From assembly GCF_003955735.1 (NCBI RefSeq), contig NZ_CP034464.1, positions 682,001 through 746,000 of the forward strand: a stretch of DNA of 64,000 nt, written 5' to 3'. The notes under the pieces were generated by a model. The model ran no database searches. It saw only the letters and a program-made list of their open reading frames with translations, and was not told the DNA's origin. The translations under genes and the position numbers were made by a program. Below, piece after piece: positions 14,736 to 21,310 of this stretch. The number at the start of each line of letters is the position of its first letter. The stretch's first letter is position 1. The DNA is from Undibacterium parvum. Its GTDB lineage: Bacteria; Pseudomonadota; Gammaproteobacteria; Burkholderiales; Burkholderiaceae_D.

Positions 14736-14812
14736 GAGACACAGAGACACAGAGAAAAACGGAGAACTGCCTTGCTTTCCTCTGTGAATCTCTGTGTCTC
14801 TGTGCCTCTGTG
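14736..14812. repeat. Inverted repeat of ACAGAG units
   Basis: The left arm GAGACACAGAGACACAGAGA and the right arm TCTCTGTGTCTCTGTG are complementary, with about 35 nt between them. Similar ACAGAG/CTCTGT arms occur as intergenic repeats in many proteobacterial genomes. It has no T-run and does not look like a standard terminator. Confidence 0.6.
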
Positions 14813-15059
14813 TTGAGTGGTTTTGACTTTCTTCATGGCGGGCTGAGCAGTTACATCTCCGTGCAATACGCTCGTTCGCAGTTAAAAATTGTTGCAGCCA
14901 TGCACGCCACTGCGCATCGCTAGCAGCTCTTGCCCTCTACACTTCGCTACAATCTTGCGCCCACATCAGCAGTTCGCTTTGCTATGATAAGCAAACTAAA
15001 GAGTGGCATATTTTTTCGTTAGCCACGCCGCATTGGTATTTGAAGACAAGGAAACCGCA

Positions 15060-15323
15060 GTGAGTATCAAGTTAGAAAAAGAAACCCAAAAGCAAGCCAT
15101 CGATTCCCTGCAACGCTATTTCGACATCAACATGGAAGAGCGCATAGGCAATTTGCAGGCGGCCGCCCTGCTCGATTTTCTACTCGAAGAAATAGGACCG
15201 AGCATCTACAATCAGGCGGTGCGCGATGCCCAAAATCATATGCAGCACAAAGTGCAAGAGCTAGACATCGACGTCCATGAAACCGAGTTTTCTTACTGGC
15301 AGAATCAAAAGAAGCGCCGCTAA
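15060..15323 (+). CDS. DUF2164 family protein
   Basis: This is a small conserved protein of unknown function. The open frame begins at 15003, but family members start at MSIKLEKETQKQAIDSLQRY. A GTG at 15060 with AAGGA about 9 nt upstream fits, giving 87 aa. The conserved core (MEERIGNLQAAALLDFLLEE, GPSIYNQAVRDAQ, ELDIDVHETEFSYW) is complete. It is cytosolic by appearance and mostly helical. It stands alone between repeat-rich stretches. Confidence 0.85.
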   Translation: MSIKLEKETQKQAIDSLQRYFDINMEERIGNLQAAALLDFLLEEIGPSIYNQAVRDAQNHMQHKVQELDIDVHETEFSYWQNQKKRR

Positions 15324-15366
15324 AACCCTTGCTGGCTAGCGCCACACCGTCTGTAGTAGGCAAGCC

Positions 15367-15435
15367 CGCGCACGCATAGCCCATGCGGCTTAGCGGCCAG
15401 CACGCCTGAAGAAGCGCATGGAATATGCGCAATGG
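15367..15435. repeat. Palindromic interspersed repeat, copy 2
   Basis: The right arm GAAGCGCATGGAATATGCGC is intact. The left arm is diverged (GCGCACGCATAGCCCATGCGGCTT). It lies 44 bp after the DUF2164 stop. Together with copy 3 (16180-16238) it brackets the integron-cassette segment. Confidence 0.75.
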
Positions 15436-15474
15436 CCTTGCCTGTGTTGAGATTGCCTGCGGCGGAATAGCTTA

Positions 15475-15562
15475 GGCTCGCTAGGTCTTGCGAAGTTGAG
15501 TTAGAACTTGGAATACGTCAACGCAAGACCTGAGCCTCGCAGTTTCTAACGTTGAATTAGAC
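15475..15562. repeat. Hairpin and box-like motifs after the cassette gene
   Basis: The arms GGTCTTGCG (15484-15492) and CGCAAGACC (15522-15530) sit inside longer imperfect arms containing GGCTC / GAGCC. Beside them, GTTGAATTAGAC at 15551-15562 reads on the minus strand as GTCTAATTCAAC, close to an attC R'' box, just after the gene stop. The polarity of the outer boxes does not make a clean attC, so I treat this as a damaged or rearranged recombination site or an unrelated hairpin. Confidence 0.4.
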
Positions 15563-15571
15563 ATATACATG

Positions 15572-15877
15572 TCAGCGATCAAACCATTTTCGAACATAGG
15601 TAACAGCTTCATCTAGTGCGCCCCCAAGCTCGGAAATTGGAACACTCCAGTCTCGACGCATTTCTTCATTTTGACGAGTCTCAATATCTACTGCGTGTAA
15701 AGATAACATGCCAGATTCTGGTTTATCTATCCAAATTTGGCAGCACTCACCATGCTTACTGGAAAGATAAACAGCCCTGAAGTCGGAGTCTACCACCCCC
15801 TCAGTATGAGTAAATAGGCTGAAATTATGCTTTGCTACCCAAGCATCAATGATTGGATCAATTTGCGCGTAAGTCAT
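15572..15877 (-). CDS. Hypothetical protein on an integron-type gene cassette
   Basis: I do not recognise the family. The 101-aa product is soluble and acidic, with an N-terminal helical part (PIIDAWVAKHNFSLF), a central beta-like part (DFRAVYLSSKHGECCQIWID, ESGMLSLHAVDIET) and a C-terminal helix (LDEAVTYVRKWFD). This layout resembles small immunity-like proteins, but that is only an impression. The ATG follows the GTTAGAC box of an attC site by 7 nt, the arrangement seen in mobile integron cassettes. There is no Shine-Dalgarno sequence, also common in cassettes. Expression probably depends on transcription from outside. Confidence 0.7.
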   Translation of the reverse strand: MTYAQIDPIIDAWVAKHNFSLFTHTEGVVDSDFRAVYLSSKHGECCQIWIDKPESGMLSLHAVDIETRQNEEMRRDWSVPISELGGALDEAVTYVRKWFDR

Positions 15878-15884
15878 GGGGGAT

Positions 15885-15967
15885 GTCTAACGAATAGCGT
15901 TTATCCGCCGCACCGGAACGCAAAATAAGATCCGCGGACTGCTTGCGGCGGATAAACCTTGTTGAAC
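15885..15967 (-). other. attC-like integron recombination site
   Basis: On the minus strand the site starts with GTTCAAC (fits RYYYAAC) and ends with GTTAGAC (fits GTTRRRY). Inside these boxes are complementary arms TTTATCCGCCGC and GCGGCGGATAAA around a centre of about 33 nt. Length is 83 bp, within the attC range. Spacers between outer and inner boxes are unequal (4 and 8 nt), as in imperfectly paired attC hairpins. The adjoining cassette gene starts 7 nt after GTTAGAC. No integrase gene is in the window. Confidence 0.75.
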
Positions 15968-16179
15968 TGAACCGCCTCCGCAGCGGTCACACTGGGTATT
16001 GTAAACGATGCGTTCGCCATATCGCTAGTAATTTGACATGCAATCGTGCATCGTCAAGTACGACAACTTCAAATGCACGGTCAACGATGCCATTCTGCAC
16101 GACGCAGTAAGGCGCAATCGTAGCGCACGATGGACTTCATCTATTGCGCCGTATGAAATTTCATAAGCATCCCGCCACT

Positions 16180-16238
16180 GCGCATATTCCATGCGCTTCT
16201 TCAAGCATGCAGGCCTGGAAGCCGCATGGAATATGCGC
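16180..16238. repeat. Palindromic interspersed repeat, copy 3 (perfect outer arms)
   Basis: The 16-bp arms GCGCATATTCCATGCG and CGCATGGAATATGCGC are perfectly complementary, with an interior containing GCATGCAGGCCTGGAAGC. One of the two best copies of the family; it could fold into a long hairpin in RNA or single-stranded DNA. Confidence 0.85.
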
Positions 16239-16259
16239 GTTGGCGGCATGCTGTTTTGA

Positions 16260-16514
16260 GTTTGCTGTGGCGTGGTCGTGTTTGTACTTCTTTCGTTACT
16301 GTGCGATTGCCGGCCGGTGGTAGACCGGCGGCTACTCCCTTTTCTTGCTTCGCCAAGAAAAGGAAGCAAAAGAAGGCGACGCAAAGTCGCTGCCCTGCGG
16401 GTACCCGCCTGTGCAGGTCAAAAAATGGGGAATGAAGCAAACTCGCTGCGATCAAACAAGCTTCATTCCTAATCCATTTTCTGCCATGCACAAGCGGCAG
16501 CGCCACATGCGAAC
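16260..16514 (+). repeat. Left arm of a ~660-bp imperfect inverted repeat
   Basis: This arm is the approximate reverse complement of 16663-16920. Matching landmarks include TTTGTACTTCT, GCCGGTGGTAGACCGGC, TTGCTTCGCCAAGAAAAGG, GCAAAGTCGCTGCCCTGCGGG, GAATGAAGCAAACTCGCTGC and GGCAGCGCCACATGCGAA. Similarity is interrupted by short indels. Confidence 0.75.
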
Positions 16515-16602
16515 GGCGAAAGTCAACACATCCGTAGTGCAGCCGCGATCTCTTTGCACAGGCAATACGCAAGCACATCGAGCTGCGGCAATCCTGTGCC
16601 GC

Positions 16603-16667
16603 TTTTGAATTGGGTTTTGACCTTGCTTTTGAATTGGTTTTTGACTCTGCTTTTGAATCGAATTCGC
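16603..16667 (+). repeat. 24-bp tandem repeat, about 2.7 units
   Basis: The units start at 16603, 16627 and 16651 and read TTTTGAATTGG-(G/T)-TTTTTGAC-like. The third is partial and diverges at CGAATTCGC. They occupy the spacer between the two inverted arms. Confidence 0.75.
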
Positions 16668-16920
16668 ATGTGGCGCTGCCAATTGTGCGGGGCGGAAAAT
16701 GGATCAGAAGTGAAGCTGTCTGAGCGCAGCGAGTTTGCTTCATTTCCCATTTTACGAGCTGCACAATTGGGTATCCCGCAGGGACAGTGACTTTGCGGCG
16801 CCTTTTTTGGCATACCTTTTTTGGCGAAGCAAAAAAGGTATGTAGCTGCCGGTCTACCACCGGCCAGCAATCTCACAATAAAGATAGAAGTACAAACAAG
16901 ACCAGGCCACAGCAAACAAA
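16663..16920 (-). repeat. Right arm of the ~660-bp imperfect inverted repeat
   Basis: This is the inverted partner of 16260-16514. It includes TTCGCATGTGGCGCTGCC at its inner end, GCAGCGAGTTTGCTTCATT, CCCGCAGGGACAGTGACTTTGC, and GCCGGTCTACCACCGGC near the outer end. A third piece of the same unit recurs at about 17050-17112 (GGTCTACCACCGGCCAGCAATC). Confidence 0.75.
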
Positions 16921-16931
16921 AACACCACCAA

Positions 16932-16978
16932 GCCAACGCACATGTGCTTGAAGAAGCGCATGGAATATGCGCGTTGGC
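16932..16978. repeat. Palindromic interspersed repeat, copy 4 (shortened)
   Basis: GCCAACGC at the left pairs with GCGTTGGC at the right. The interior keeps only the right-hand GAAGCGCATGGAATATGCGC of the family. Confidence 0.65.
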
Positions 16979-17111
16979 AGGGTCGTGTTTTAAAACTGCT
17001 ACGGCACCGCGACGCACATGCAATTACGCTGCGCGAATCGCAGCTACCGTGTTTGCTTTTTTTGGCGAAGAAAAAAGGTGATTGCCACCGGTCTACCACC
17101 GGCCAGCAATC

Positions 17112-17132
17112 CAACAACAACAACAACAACAA
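17112..17132 (+). repeat. (CAA)7 microsatellite
   Basis: Seven uninterrupted CAA units lie 160 bp upstream of the TonB receptor start, just after the third piece of the large repeat. The tract is non-coding by my reading. Confidence 0.9.
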
Positions 17133-17292
17133 CGAAAAATCATCAAACATAAAACCGCTGCGCAAACTGATCGCTATAAATTTTTTTTCACTGTTGTCAT
17201 GTCACGTGTTTGTCATCGAGGCTTCATAAAGTCGTCATATTTACTTCTTAGACTTGCGGGTTTTCTACCCACCAAAGTATCCGGAAGGCAAT

Positions 17293-19497
17293 ATGACCCG
17301 TATCACCAACAGCAAGCAGCAATTCAAGCACCGACTGATGTCGGCCAACGTCGTGATCGCATTGGCGCTGATGACCCAGCAAAACGCACAGGCGCAATCG
17401 ATCGCAGAATCTAGCTCGGCGCTCGATGCCGATGCGATTACGGCCAAAGTTGTCATCAAAGGTTCTAGCGTTGCTAGCCGCGCCCCGGTGCAAGCATCCT
17501 TAAGCGCCACCCAACCGCAATCGATTATCAGCGCCACCTTTATCGAGCAAGCCGTAACCCCCTTGGCTGACTACAATGCGGTGGCGCGTATTGCACCAAG
17601 TATCGCGGGCGGCGTTTCAGCCAATGGCCCTGGTGCGGCCGAAACCAAGGTCACGCTGCGCGGTTTTCAGGATGGTGAATACAACATGACTTACGATGGG
17701 ATACCGTTCGGTGACACGAATAATCCCACTCATCATTCGACTTCGTATTTTCCGGCCCGCATCATAGGCGGTATGGTGATAGAACGCGGACCGGGCAATG
17801 CCAGTAATCTGGGCCAGGCCACCTTTGGCGGCTCTATCAATCTGTACTCAAAAGAACTCGCGCATGAAAGTAACTTCACCCCCTATGCCAGTTTTGGCAC
17901 TTGGAATACCAAGATGTTGGGAGTGCAGTTCGATAGCGGTCAAATGGCCAGCGCCGGCAACGCCAATCTGATGTTCAATGCCTCGCGTCTCACTAGCGAT
18001 GGCTACCTCACTTACAGCGCGGTCAGTGAAGATAATTATCAGTTCAAGGCACAACTGCCCTTGGGTAAAGAGAGTACGCTGACGGTGTTCTCTACCGTGA
18101 ATAAGATCCATAGCAATGTGCCGGATAAAGGCGGTGTGACCTTAGACCAGGTGGCCAAATTCGGCAAAAACTATGCGCTGAATAATGACCCAACTAGCCA
18201 AAACTATTTCGGCTACAACTACAATAATAAAGACACTGATTTCAGCTACATCCGCTTGCAGTCGACGCTGGCCGGCTGGTCTATCGACAATACTCTGTAC
18301 ACCTATGCCTACAATAACGACACTTATTCAGGGCAAGATGCTAGCGGTGGCACCGCCAACGGCACCAAGGCAGCACCGGCCGGGAATAAAGATGTCCCTG
18401 GCTATAATAAGCTCAACTCGTATCGCGTCAACGGCGACATTTTAAAGCTCAGCAATAAAATGGCAGCCGGTTTGCTGCGCACCGGTGTCTGGTTAGAAAA
18501 TTCCGACACCGAGCGTCATCTGTATGATCTGGACTGGACTTTAGGTCTGCCCAATCCTAAGGAAGCCACAGCACCAAAAAACGTGGCCTACGAGCAACGC
18601 TCGTCCTGGTCGCAATACCAGCCTTTCGTCGAATTTGAATGGACGCCTATGGCAGGATTAAGCATCACGCCCGGGTTTAAATATCTGAACTTTAAGCGCT
18701 CGCTAAATGCTCCTGTCAACCAGGGCACGCGAATCGCCACCAACGCCGAACAAACCTATACCGCCAGCCTGCCCTTCCTGACTGCCAACTACAGCCTCAG
18801 TCAAGAATGGTCGGCCTACGCGCAAGTGGCGCGCGGCTTTCTGGTGCCGGAACTGTCTATGTTTTACGTCAACAATCCGAATCTGAGTACGCCTAAGCCG
18901 CAAACCTCGACCAATTACCAGTTGGGTACTGTGCATCAGTCACAGAACTTCACTTTTGATGCCGATATTTACTACATCGATTTCAATAACAAGATCGCCT
19001 CTAGCGGCAATGGCAATGATCTGGTGTATTTCAATCAGGGTGGCGTGGTCTACAAGGGCATAGAAGGCGCCGCCACTTATTACGTAGGCAGCGGTTTTTC
19101 TTTGCACGCGAACGCTTCGCTAAATAGCGCCAAGGCCAAGGACAGCAATCTACAGGTTGCAAAAGTACCTAACAGCACCAGCGCTTTTGGCCTGCTGTAC
19201 AAAGCCAACGGCCTGTATGGATCTATTCTCGCCAAAACCGTGGGCAGCCAATACGCCAAAGACGGCGAGGTAGCTGCATATAAAATTGATGCCTATACAC
19301 TCACCGATATGACAGTCGGCTATCGCTGGAAAATCAATAGCGCCTTGAAAAATATCAAGGCTCAGTTCGGCATCAGCAATCTGTTTAACCAACAGGACGT
19401 CACCGCGATCACGCCCAATAGCAAGGGTGTGGCGTTTGATCAATACACTTTTTTACCGGCACGCAGCTATAACCTATCGCTGAGCGCGGATTTTTAA
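17293..19497 (+). CDS. TonB-dependent outer-membrane receptor
   Basis: Such receptors import siderophores, cobalamin or other large substrates using TonB energy. The frame opens at 17254, but ATG 17293 has GGAAGG 4 nt upstream and is followed by a signal peptide (NVVIALALMTQQNAQA), giving 734 aa. A plug domain follows (VTLRGFQDGEYNMTYDGIPFGD; GPGNASNLGQATFGGSINLYS). The rest forms a 22-strand barrel rich in alternating aromatic residues, ending in a typical outer-membrane C-terminus (SYNLSLSADF). GTWNTKMLGVQFDSG and the late FGISNLFNQQDV match the receptor family. Substrate unknown. No transporter genes lie alongside. Confidence 0.92.
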   Translation: MTRITNSKQQFKHRLMSANVVIALALMTQQNAQAQSIAESSSALDADAITAKVVIKGSSVASRAPVQASLSATQPQSIISATFIEQAVTPLADYNAVARIAPSIAGGVSANGPGAAETKVTLRGFQDGEYNMTYDGIPFGDTNNPTHHSTSYFPARIIGGMVIERGPGNASNLGQATFGGSINLYSKELAHESNFTPYASFGTWNTKMLGVQFDSGQMASAGNANLMFNASRLTSDGYLTYSAVSEDNYQFKAQLPLGKESTLTVFSTVNKIHSNVPDKGGVTLDQVAKFGKNYALNNDPTSQNYFGYNYNNKDTDFSYIRLQSTLAGWSIDNTLYTYAYNNDTYSGQDASGGTANGTKAAPAGNKDVPGYNKLNSYRVNGDILKLSNKMAAGLLRTGVWLENSDTERHLYDLDWTLGLPNPKEATAPKNVAYEQRSSWSQYQPFVEFEWTPMAGLSITPGFKYLNFKRSLNAPVNQGTRIATNAEQTYTASLPFLTANYSLSQEWSAYAQVARGFLVPELSMFYVNNPNLSTPKPQTSTNYQLGTVHQSQNFTFDADIYYIDFNNKIASSGNGNDLVYFNQGGVVYKGIEGAATYYVGSGFSLHANASLNSAKAKDSNLQVAKVPNSTSAFGLLYKANGLYGSILAKTVGSQYAKDGEVAAYKIDAYTLTDMTVGYRWKINSALKNIKAQFGISNLFNQQDVTAITPNSKGVAFDQYTFLPARSYNLSLSADF

Positions 19498-19558
19498 TCG
19501 TGCTTTCGTGAAAGCTTACGGGTTTTGGAATCACGTCTGATTCCTACAACTCCAGAGC

Positions 19559-19601
19559 AAGAGCCATGCGCTGACATCACAGTCAGGCATGGCTCTTTTC
19601 A
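19559..19601. terminator. Bidirectional terminator between TonB receptor and ribB
   Basis: AAGAGCCATGC pairs with GCATGGCTCTT, with an inner CTGAC/GTCAG stem. A T-run follows on the plus strand. The hairpin sits between two convergent genes and can serve both. Confidence 0.8.
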
Positions 19602-19602
19602 A

Positions 19603-20283
19603 TTACACTTTCTGTTTCGAACGATAGTTGGCCAATTCATCTATCGTCAAAATCACCAGATCATGCGACAAGGCATAGTGGGCGATTTCTTCGCCTCTGG
19701 CCATGCTGCCGTCTGGATTCATCAACTCACACAAGACTGCCGCTGGCAACAAGCCCGCCATTTGCGCCAGATCGACCGAGCCTTCGGTATGACCACGCCG
19801 GCTTAACACGCCACCGGGCGCGGCGCGCAAAGGGAAGACGTGGCCAGGTCGCGCCAGATCATCGGGCTGTGCATCGACGGCAATGGCCGCCAATACCGTC
19901 GTTACGCGATCCGCCGCCGAGACCCCGGTAGTGACGCCGTGCTTGGCTTCGATACTGACGGTAAAGGCGGTGCCGTAACGGCTGTCATTGTTGCTGACCA
20001 TAGGCGGCAAGGCCAGATGTTGCAGCTTCTCGTCGGTCAGGCACAGGCAAACGATGCCACTGCCATCGCGTATCATGCGTGCCATAGAGTCTATGCTGAT
20101 CTTTTCGGCCGCGACGATCAGATCGGCCTCATTTTCTCTATCGGCATCATCCATCAGCAAGACCGGGCGACCCAGGCGTAAATCGGCCAAGGCACGTGGC
20201 AATCTTTGCTCAAAAGGCGCAAGTGAAATGACTGCTGTTTCGATACCAGCAGTTGGGGACGTAAAAATTTGATTAACTAACAT
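19603..20283 (-). CDS. ribB: 3,4-dihydroxy-2-butanone 4-phosphate synthase
   Basis: RibB converts ribulose 5-phosphate to the four-carbon precursor of riboflavin. The 226-aa product has the family motifs [20 protein letters not shown] (acidic metal ligands), [55 protein letters not shown], and [15 protein letters not shown]. It is a stand-alone RibB without the GTP cyclohydrolase II domain. The FMN riboswitch upstream makes this a riboflavin-regulated locus apart from any rib operon in the window. GGAGCG precedes the ATG. Confidence 0.96.
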
Positions 20284-20284
20284 A

Positions 20285-20322
20285 TGAAACGCTCCGCAAG
20301 TAAAAGTGCAAAAGACGTTTCA
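20285..20322 (-). promoter_or_regulatory. Candidate ribosome-binding-site sequestering hairpin of ribB
   Basis: TGAAACG (20285-20291) and CGTTTCA (20316-20322) are complementary. On the minus strand this stem covers part of the GGAGCG ribosome-binding site of ribB. It fits an expression platform that blocks translation when FMN is bound. Confidence 0.45.
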
Positions 20323-20393
20323 GGGGATGTGATTAGCCACGCGCAAGCGCTTCCCCGTCAAGCATTGAACGGAGAATAACTTAAGCGTGGCGC

Positions 20394-20550
20394 ATCTTCT
20401 CTCATCCGGACTATGACCGTCGGCCCTGGAATCACACCAGATCTGCTGACCTTGCAAAAACGCTTGCAAGCGCTCGCGGGCTTGTCCCGACAGACTACAA
20501 CTGTGCCGAGTTTTACCGCCGGTGGGGAATTACACCCCGCCCTGAAGACG
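20394..20550 (-). ncRNA. FMN riboswitch (RFN element)
   Basis: The minus strand carries the conserved RFN blocks in order: TTCAGGGCGGGGTGTAATTC, CCCACCGGCGGTAAA, AGCCCGCGAGCG, GGTCAGCAGATCTGGTG, TCCAGGGCCGACGGTCATAG and TCCGGATGAGAGAAG. It lies in the ribB leader, about 110 nt before the ATG. FMN binding normally lowers expression of the downstream gene. Confidence 0.97.
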
Positions 20551-20800
20551 TACTACCTACCGACATTGTCGGCCTTGGGATTATACGCAACAAAGCCAGC
20601 GTAATGCTGTCGAAGAAGCTAGATGACTTGCTCAAATCCACATTCCACTTTACATTGTGCGCAGAATAAAAATCTAAGGATAAATTGCCACACACCATTT
20701 TTTAATGACTAAAAATGCTACACTGTAGCCGCAAAATTCTTTAGCCATAGTCCAGTCCAGTACTTTACAAATCAAGCAGGCTTTGTAGGCCGGAGTAGTG
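20551..20800. other. Divergent promoter region, ribB leader and DUF6882-like gene
   Basis: About 250 bp without a gene. It should contain the promoter of the riboswitch transcript (minus) and of the downstream plus-strand gene. I see no operator I can name. Confidence 0.4.
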
Positions 20801-21310
20801 ATGTTGAGTTCCTTCAAAAAACGTCGTGATATTGAAGACACTATTGTGATCAGCCTTGAGGCTGCGCACACGCACACTGCCGCCCACAGAGAAAACTGGC
20901 GTCTGGGTGAAGAAAAAACCTGGAACCTCGATCAAAACCACGGTCAGATACTGTTCACTTTTGCAGATGGCATGCAAGCCTTAGCGCCGGTGCAAATTAT
21001 CGGTACGCTCAACCCTGAGGACGAGATGTTCACCTGGGCCTGGCGTCACCCTACCGTACTGGCCGCCCTGCAAAAGAACGCCTTGCGCGTGAAGGCCTTT
21101 GGCAAGCAGCATAGAGCGGGTGAGCTGATCAAAAAGAGCGTGGCCTGCACCGAACAAAGAGCCTGGGAATATACCGCTTTGGCGATGCATCTGAACACGG
21201 ATCATGGAGTGTATCGCGCCAAGGCCAATAATGGCACTTTAGTTTTCATGAATTTCGGCGAAGTCTTGCTGACACATCTCAATCCCGCCAAGCTGCGCGC
21301 CAACGCCTAA
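20801..21310 (+). CDS. DUF6882-like hypothetical protein
   Basis: The 169-aa protein has the layout of DUF6882 proteins: a central FTFADGMQALAPVQIIGTLN strand region, then MFTWAWRHPTVLAALQKNAL, FGKQH, and C-terminal LTHL. Function unknown; no signal peptide or membrane segment. An in-frame GTG sits directly before the ATG, but GGAG at 20792-20795 is better spaced for ATG 20801. The family assignment is from remembered pattern, so moderate. The first four codons encode MLSSF. Confidence 0.7.
   Translation: MLSSFKKRRDIEDTIVISLEAAHTHTAAHRENWRLGEEKTWNLDQNHGQILFTFADGMQALAPVQIIGTLNPEDEMFTWAWRHPTVLAALQKNALRVKAFGKQHRAGELIKKSVACTEQRAWEYTALAMHLNTDHGVYRAKANNGTLVFMNFGEVLLTHLNPAKLRANA

Follow-up and report, generated by a model that had tools for sequence, protein, structure and literature searches.

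Does a single cassette-like gene, lying immediately behind an attC-like site in a chromosome without a recognizable integron, represent the remnant of a lost integron, or did the site reach this position by another route? The question is raised by a locus on the minus strand of a 64,000-nt stretch of the Undibacterium parvum chromosome (hereafter, the window), in which the first-pass annotation recognized an integron-type gene cassette with its attC. Our analysis, based on sequence comparison, favours a different origin for the site (probability of roughly 0.7), namely, that it is the right end of an ISAzo26-like element of the IS91 family, which carries an IntI-like tyrosine recombinase and the two ends of which jointly make up an attC, so that the window would hold a solo end heading one relic cassette.

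An attC-like site on the wrong side of the gene

The sequence elements noticed at first pass are all in place. On the minus strand, an R''-like box, GTTCAAC (15,961–15,967), is followed by the L''-like (15,944–15,957) and L'-like (15,899–15,912) arms of a hairpin, which were retrieved in the inverted-repeat listing (I4) with the cores TTTATCCGCCGC and GCGGCGGATAAA and, when extended, are complementary at 14 of 14 positions. Next comes the R' box of the cassette, GTTAGAC (15,885–15,891), which fits the GTTRRRY consensus and is separated by 7 nt (ATCCCCC) from the ATG (15,877–15,875) of a gene for a 101-aa protein (15,572–15,877). By eye, no Shine-Dalgarno-like stretch is seen between the box and the start codon, in agreement with the reported lack of a ribosome-binding site. 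The arm pattern is more frequent in this genome than expected by chance: there are 10 perfect matches to the arm GTTTATCCGCCGCA, and with up to one mismatch the number rises to 20, whereas the reversed pattern, used as a control, gives 7. Of these 20, 16 are paired face to face, about 45 nt apart.

The attC of a cassette is located after its gene, and canonical attC sites display an extrahelical base in the L arms, whereas the 14 pairs of the upstream site form without a bulge and hence without such a base. Searches were performed with an attC covariance model (R2) comprising 15 of 16 sites that adjoin intI on its cassette side among relatives from the genus and the order. In the U. parvum genome, R2 retrieved five attCs at E ≤ 1, whereas the window remained without a match at E ≤ 10, and with the filters off, the sole match overlapping the hairpin (15,885–15,967) scored 1.5 bits. 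Because it precedes the gene, is not matched by R2, lacks the extrahelical base and recurs as a dispersed repeat, which in relatives constitutes the right end of an IS91-family element, the upstream site does not qualify as the attC of this cassette, contrary to the original assignment. Thus, the test proposed at first pass, an attC hit at a normal score, went against the site, whereas the cassette interpretation of the gene survives on other evidence. An ordinary attC with its cassette, left behind by a lost integron, would account for the boxes and the spacing; however, given the missing model match, the 13 copies of the site in this genome and its position relative to the gene, we regard this reading as improbable, refuted for the site although it stands for the gene.

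The reported absence of an integrase holds for the entire genome: no match to the integron integrase profile (TIGR02249) exceeded the cut-off in U. parvum or in the sister genome G014, compared to 20 of 60 related genomes with matches above it, so that the genome does not contain a complete integron. Arrays of two or more attC sites without intI are known as CALINs, and the locus is not one of these either, as there is no canonical attC in the window. Elsewhere in the U. parvum genome, canonical attCs occur without a solo end within the stretches examined (L167 5736–5822, L168 5582–5671 and L169 4791–5847).

A dispersed repeat that ends at the integron crossover

The hairpin site is part of a repeat of about 150 bp (15,887–16,035, minus strand), for which we built a covariance model (R1) from 20 copies in the genus, the window copy among them. 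R1 matches the window site with 159.3 bits (E 2.8e-29), detects nothing else in the window at E ≤ 0.1, and yields 63 matches in 16 of 43 genomes of the genus, including 13 in U. parvum and 16 in genome G009; at the family level, matches extend to 26 of the 392 genomes, representing 9 of the 44 genera. In the ~150 nt that the aligned copies share, CTAGCAAT..TACAAT is succeeded by a small hairpin and an R''-like box, which reads GTCCAAC in 11 of the 20 copies; then come a large hairpin and CTATTCG. In the window, the TACAAT motif, which all 20 aligned copies share unchanged (alignment A2), is located at 15,998–16,003 and the small hairpin at 15,970–15,988, both on the minus strand; the latter is supported by compensatory changes among the copies, with 4 of 6 pairs changed on both sides. 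Homology among the copies ceases at G^TT, within the R' box in the window, which is precisely the integron crossover point (G^TTRRRY), with unrelated genes lying beyond. Within a genome, the repeat cores are 81–82% identical, compared to 50–62% for the flanks (10 copies in G009 and 9 in U. parvum). The TACAAT motif is a possible outward −10 box that may drive the downstream gene, although a promoter scan detected no consensus promoter.

A hairpin of the REP or terminator type, unrelated to integrons, would likewise be dispersed and palindromic, and the repeat does adjoin a REP-like family. Such a hairpin would not, however, explain why attC matches follow the repeat on the same strand, nor the exact attI junctions of the full-length copies described below, and we consider this explanation barely conceivable.

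Full-length IS91-family elements terminating in the repeat

In relatives, complete elements that terminate in this repeat were delineated by comparison of copies. They are 2458–2486 bp long (~2.47 kb) and encode a tyrosine recombinase (PF00589) followed by an IS91 transposase (NF033538, 421 and 427 bits), with the recombinase match ending 1.37–1.46 kb before the repeat in seven copies from four genomes. The full-length copies begin with GTTGAAC, which fits an R' box, and end with R''-L''-L'-CTATTC, that is, with the same hairpin as in the window; R1 recognizes full-length right ends and the window site alike. The right-end R'' box is GTCCAAC in all eight full-length copies compared and GTTCAAC in the window, the latter being the exact complement of the left-end GTTGAAC. 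When joined, the left and right ends of five elements fold into an attC-like hairpin in which R'' pairs with R'.

The recombinase is IntI-like but was rejected as IntI proper: the two proteins scanned against TIGR02249 score 177 and 172 bits, below the 265-bit cut-off, and the IntI-specific insert is missing from all 13 aligned element recombinases. In the phylogenetic tree, these 13 cluster together (support 92/88), separately from the 16 IntI and the 10 Xer proteins included, although long-branch joins in this tree may be false.

Searching for the left end GTTGAACTAAACCGCTGCGCGGTGG with up to four substitutions (start GTTGAACTAAACCGC..), we found 11 distinct loci (16 entries with duplicates), and in 7 of these, the left end abuts an attI or attC site, as judged from alignment, model match or the region on the intI side. 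In L085, 37 of 37 left-flank bases, as far as the GTT, coincide with an attI that accompanies the intI in a different genome; in L161, 75% of 150 left-flank bases match a second attI type; the element in L199 starts 283 bp from an intact intI, and the upstream regions of L200 and L201 are the same as or similar to that of L199. The attC model covers the junction in L166 (32 bits) and, weakly, in L084 (16 bits, E 1.3). The left flank in L203 resembles an attC by eye, and the remaining 3 of 11 left ends (L202, L204 and L205) have no clear assignment. Judging by these junctions, the full-length element is often placed like a gene cassette, at the G^TT of attI or attC.

Given that the element encodes an IS91 transposase, it could alternatively move by rolling circle into GTTR targets, merely preferring integron R' boxes, in which case the likeness to attC would be target mimicry. 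IS91 depends on a GTTC-like tetranucleotide that flanks its right end, and a copy in Polaromonas lies outside any visible integron, both of which fit this alternative. However, a 4-nt target would not place 7 of 11 left ends (and one more by eye) at attI or attC, and the R''/R' complementarity between ends located ~2.4 kb apart argues against mimicry as well, so that we consider this route rather unlikely.

Under the reading that we prefer, the full-length element would enter at the G^TT of attI or attC in the manner of a cassette, with IntI or the element's own recombinase recombining its folded, circularized form. In the window, the right end alone would remain, heading a one-cassette relic that consists of the gene and a collapsed attC. 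Mobility, promoter activity and the docking of cassettes at solo ends are functions that we infer. The window repeat is classified as a solo end because the genes for the recombinase and the Y2 transposase of the element were not found: the U. parvum genome holds no copy of the recombinase, just a Xer-like match, and for the transposase, the corresponding G014 locus (L102) contains no protein fragment of the IS91 element in the 3 kb preceding it. More generally, 52 of the 57 repeat loci checked (of 62) have no protein fragment of the IS91 element within 3 kb upstream, although some of the contigs end sooner, and the preferred reading does not account for the origin and multiplication of these solo ends. 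An empty site for the window locus was not obtained.

Genes and attC sites adjacent to solo ends

An open reading frame of at least 60 aa starts within 60 nt of the crossover at 36 of 40 loci (the count covering 40 of the 62 R1 entries), compared to 31% of 2000 random starts. A strict GTTRRRY follows the crossover at 14 of these 40 loci, or at 18 if T is allowed at position 5. The distribution of attC sites around the repeat is strongly one-sided. Across 56 loci, R2 produced 31 matches at E ≤ 5, of which 23 are downstream on the same strand, 3 upstream on the same strand and none on the opposite strand, the remaining 5 coming from loci that lack the repeat; the 23 downstream matches are spread over 15 loci, one of which is counted in two species. 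At E ≤ 0.1, the corresponding numbers are 18 downstream, 1 upstream, 0 on the opposite strand and 4 in repeat-less loci. The sequence available within 4 kb is similar on the two sides of the repeat (203 and 192 kb).

This arrangement raises the possibility, which we consider less likely than not, that solo ends function as landing pads of the attI kind and carry an outward promoter, so that they would be places at which cassettes are captured whenever an integrase is supplied from elsewhere. The repeat is indeed a discrete, conserved unit with its invariant TACAAT, different cassettes accompany different copies, nearly all attC matches lie downstream, and several of the genomes encode intI elsewhere. 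By contrast, we found no pair of loci in which an end at the same position is accompanied by two different cassettes, neither U. parvum nor G014 possesses intI, the end carries no consensus promoter, and in the five pairs of loci compared between these two genomes, the near-identical block does not stop at the repeat but extends into what lies downstream.

The cassette gene and its damaged downstream site

The 101-aa protein has no family in Pfam, NCBIfam or PADLOC, in line with the first-pass description of the gene as uncharacterized. A protein search returned 25 sequences including the query, and 18 of the 24 others reside on contigs of at most 3 kb. In a tblastn-like search of 399 genomes of the order, the protein was found in one, that of U. 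parvum itself, among the matches listed; outside these, the sister genome G014 holds the locus with 96% identity over 968 of 971 bases and an identical protein. The presence of the locus in identical form in all relatives, named at first pass as an observation that would speak against a cassette, is therefore not what we see. A homologue in Spartinivicinus begins 10 nt after a GTTAGGC box, with no attC-model match at that location. Another homologue, 35% identical, is encoded near a Tae4-like T6SS amidase on a Polymorphobacter plasmid (L033 3787–5312); in this branch, the protein perhaps plays an immunity-like role.

Behind the gene, there is no intact attC, only a remnant at 15,544–15,562 (minus strand), which reads GTCTAA-TTCAAC-GTTAGAA. 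Here, an R''-like GTCTAA, legible as the complement of the gene's own GTTAGAC box, is joined to a second R'-like box, GTTAGAA, with no hairpin in between. The attC model ranks this stretch second, with a non-significant score of 2.9 bits (E 4.2). It looks like a collapsed attC that would have lost its hairpin, and the earlier description of the site after the gene as damaged holds as a reading of the letters. Since the genome offers neither an integrase nor the recombinase of the element, and the cassette has no intact attC, the gene is probably immobile now. Overall, the notion of an integron-type cassette is retained for a cassette-type, uncharacterized gene with a damaged downstream site and no integrase, but not for the upstream site as its attC.

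The locus belongs to a block (14,773–21,123) that is ~97% identical to G014, whereas its flanks are 75–82% identical, and it was therefore probably shared between species by recombination. Four other solo-end loci are situated in similar G014 blocks, with 93–99.8% identity. Outside the cassette, a REP-like repeat at 15,373–15,436 is inverted relative to its partner at 16,174–16,237 (I1, 64 nt, 86% complementary) and has many copies in the genome. Members of this REP-like family, which centres on CGCATGGAATATGCGC, are found closely upstream of several solo ends in U. parvum. Within the same block, an FMN riboswitch (20,390–20,553, minus strand, 110.9 bits) is located upstream of an ORF (19,603–20,283), which we take to be ribB-like.

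Comparison with known systems

Integrons and IS91-type elements both act on single-stranded DNA, yet they are treated as separate, whereas one element appears here to be able to use both routes. ISAzo26-like elements share the order of recombinase and IS91 transposase, the left end GTTGGACTAAACCGC and a right end composed of GTCCAAC and a hairpin, the two ends being complementary. The ISAzo26 copy of Aromatoleum differs in that there is no visible integron site and its right end is devoid of CTATTC^GTT; the window differs in that the whole body of the element is missing.

IS91-like elements beside attC sites are already known. ISShvi3 adjoins an attC in a Shewanella integron, where it forms a new cassette structure, but the parts of that account available to us describe neither a recombinase gene nor attC-forming ends or dispersed solo ends for it (PMC9229058). 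In the sul4 modules, an attC is found at or right after the IS91-like ISCR28, and passive shuffling as cassettes has been suggested; that element is of the ISCR type, and solo ends are not described in the portions of the report consulted (PMC12772301). Variable genes also adjoin the IS91-type end of ISCR1, and outward promoters have been measured at its oriIS, according to the sections seen, whereas the window end offers the invariant TACAAT alone (PMC6218425). Cassettes with a truncated attC, for instance, with just R'' kept, and delta-attI cassettes occur in mobile class 1 and class 2 integrons; the former class resembles the remnant behind the window gene, although the excerpts at hand describe no transposon end in front of such cassettes (PMC12901181). 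With CALINs, as outlined in the part of the source available, the locus shares a cassette without an integrase but differs in having no canonical attC (PMC9229058). In the open-licence literature, our searches turned up no description of recombinase-bearing IS91 elements whose ends form an attC, nor of scattered solo ends from such elements.

The element appears to leave ends scattered in chromosomes, with many of these ends heading a small set of cassettes of their own, away from any integrase. This would explain the origin of some integrase-less cassettes and provides a concrete family in which to study how cassettes leave integrons; it also bears on the origin of integron integrases and attC sites, a question that is still open. 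Going further, this branch of IS91 elements could consist of double movers that combine HUH rolling-circle transposition with attC-forming ends and an IntI-like recombinase, their solo ends serving as intI-less pads of attI plus promoter from which any passing integrase would seed cassettes chromosome-wide, and the recombinase could be an extant relative of the IntI ancestor. We consider this extended scenario unlikely and offer it as speculation.

Relatives on plasmids

A tblastn search with the recombinase retrieved 51 plasmid records at E ≤ 1e-60, each with less than 60% identity. On plasmid 2 of Aromatoleum, the transposase is annotated as ISAzo26, and the ends of the element, GTTGGAC and GTCCAAC, are complementary. 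The arms of the large hairpin covary between elements (CCG/CGG, CTG/CAG and CAG/CTG). No integron is visible around the Polaromonas copy (L230). A relative of the element has already reached a class 1 integron: in the Escherichia coli plasmid pM216_AC2, it is inserted between the aac(6')-IIa and aadA4 cassettes (L235 3953–6449). On its left, an attC (17 bits, E 0.11) runs up to GTTGAAC, whereas its right end, detected with R1 built from copies in the genus only (E 4.7e-7), precedes GTTAGGC and a further cassette. Besides a partial match in Polaromonas, there is no other near copy of this element in 72,556 plasmid records. In L230, L231, L232 and L236, ISAzo26-like elements adjoin genes for other tyrosine recombinases, some of which stand in rows of two to three; elements of this kind may seek recombinase sites in general.
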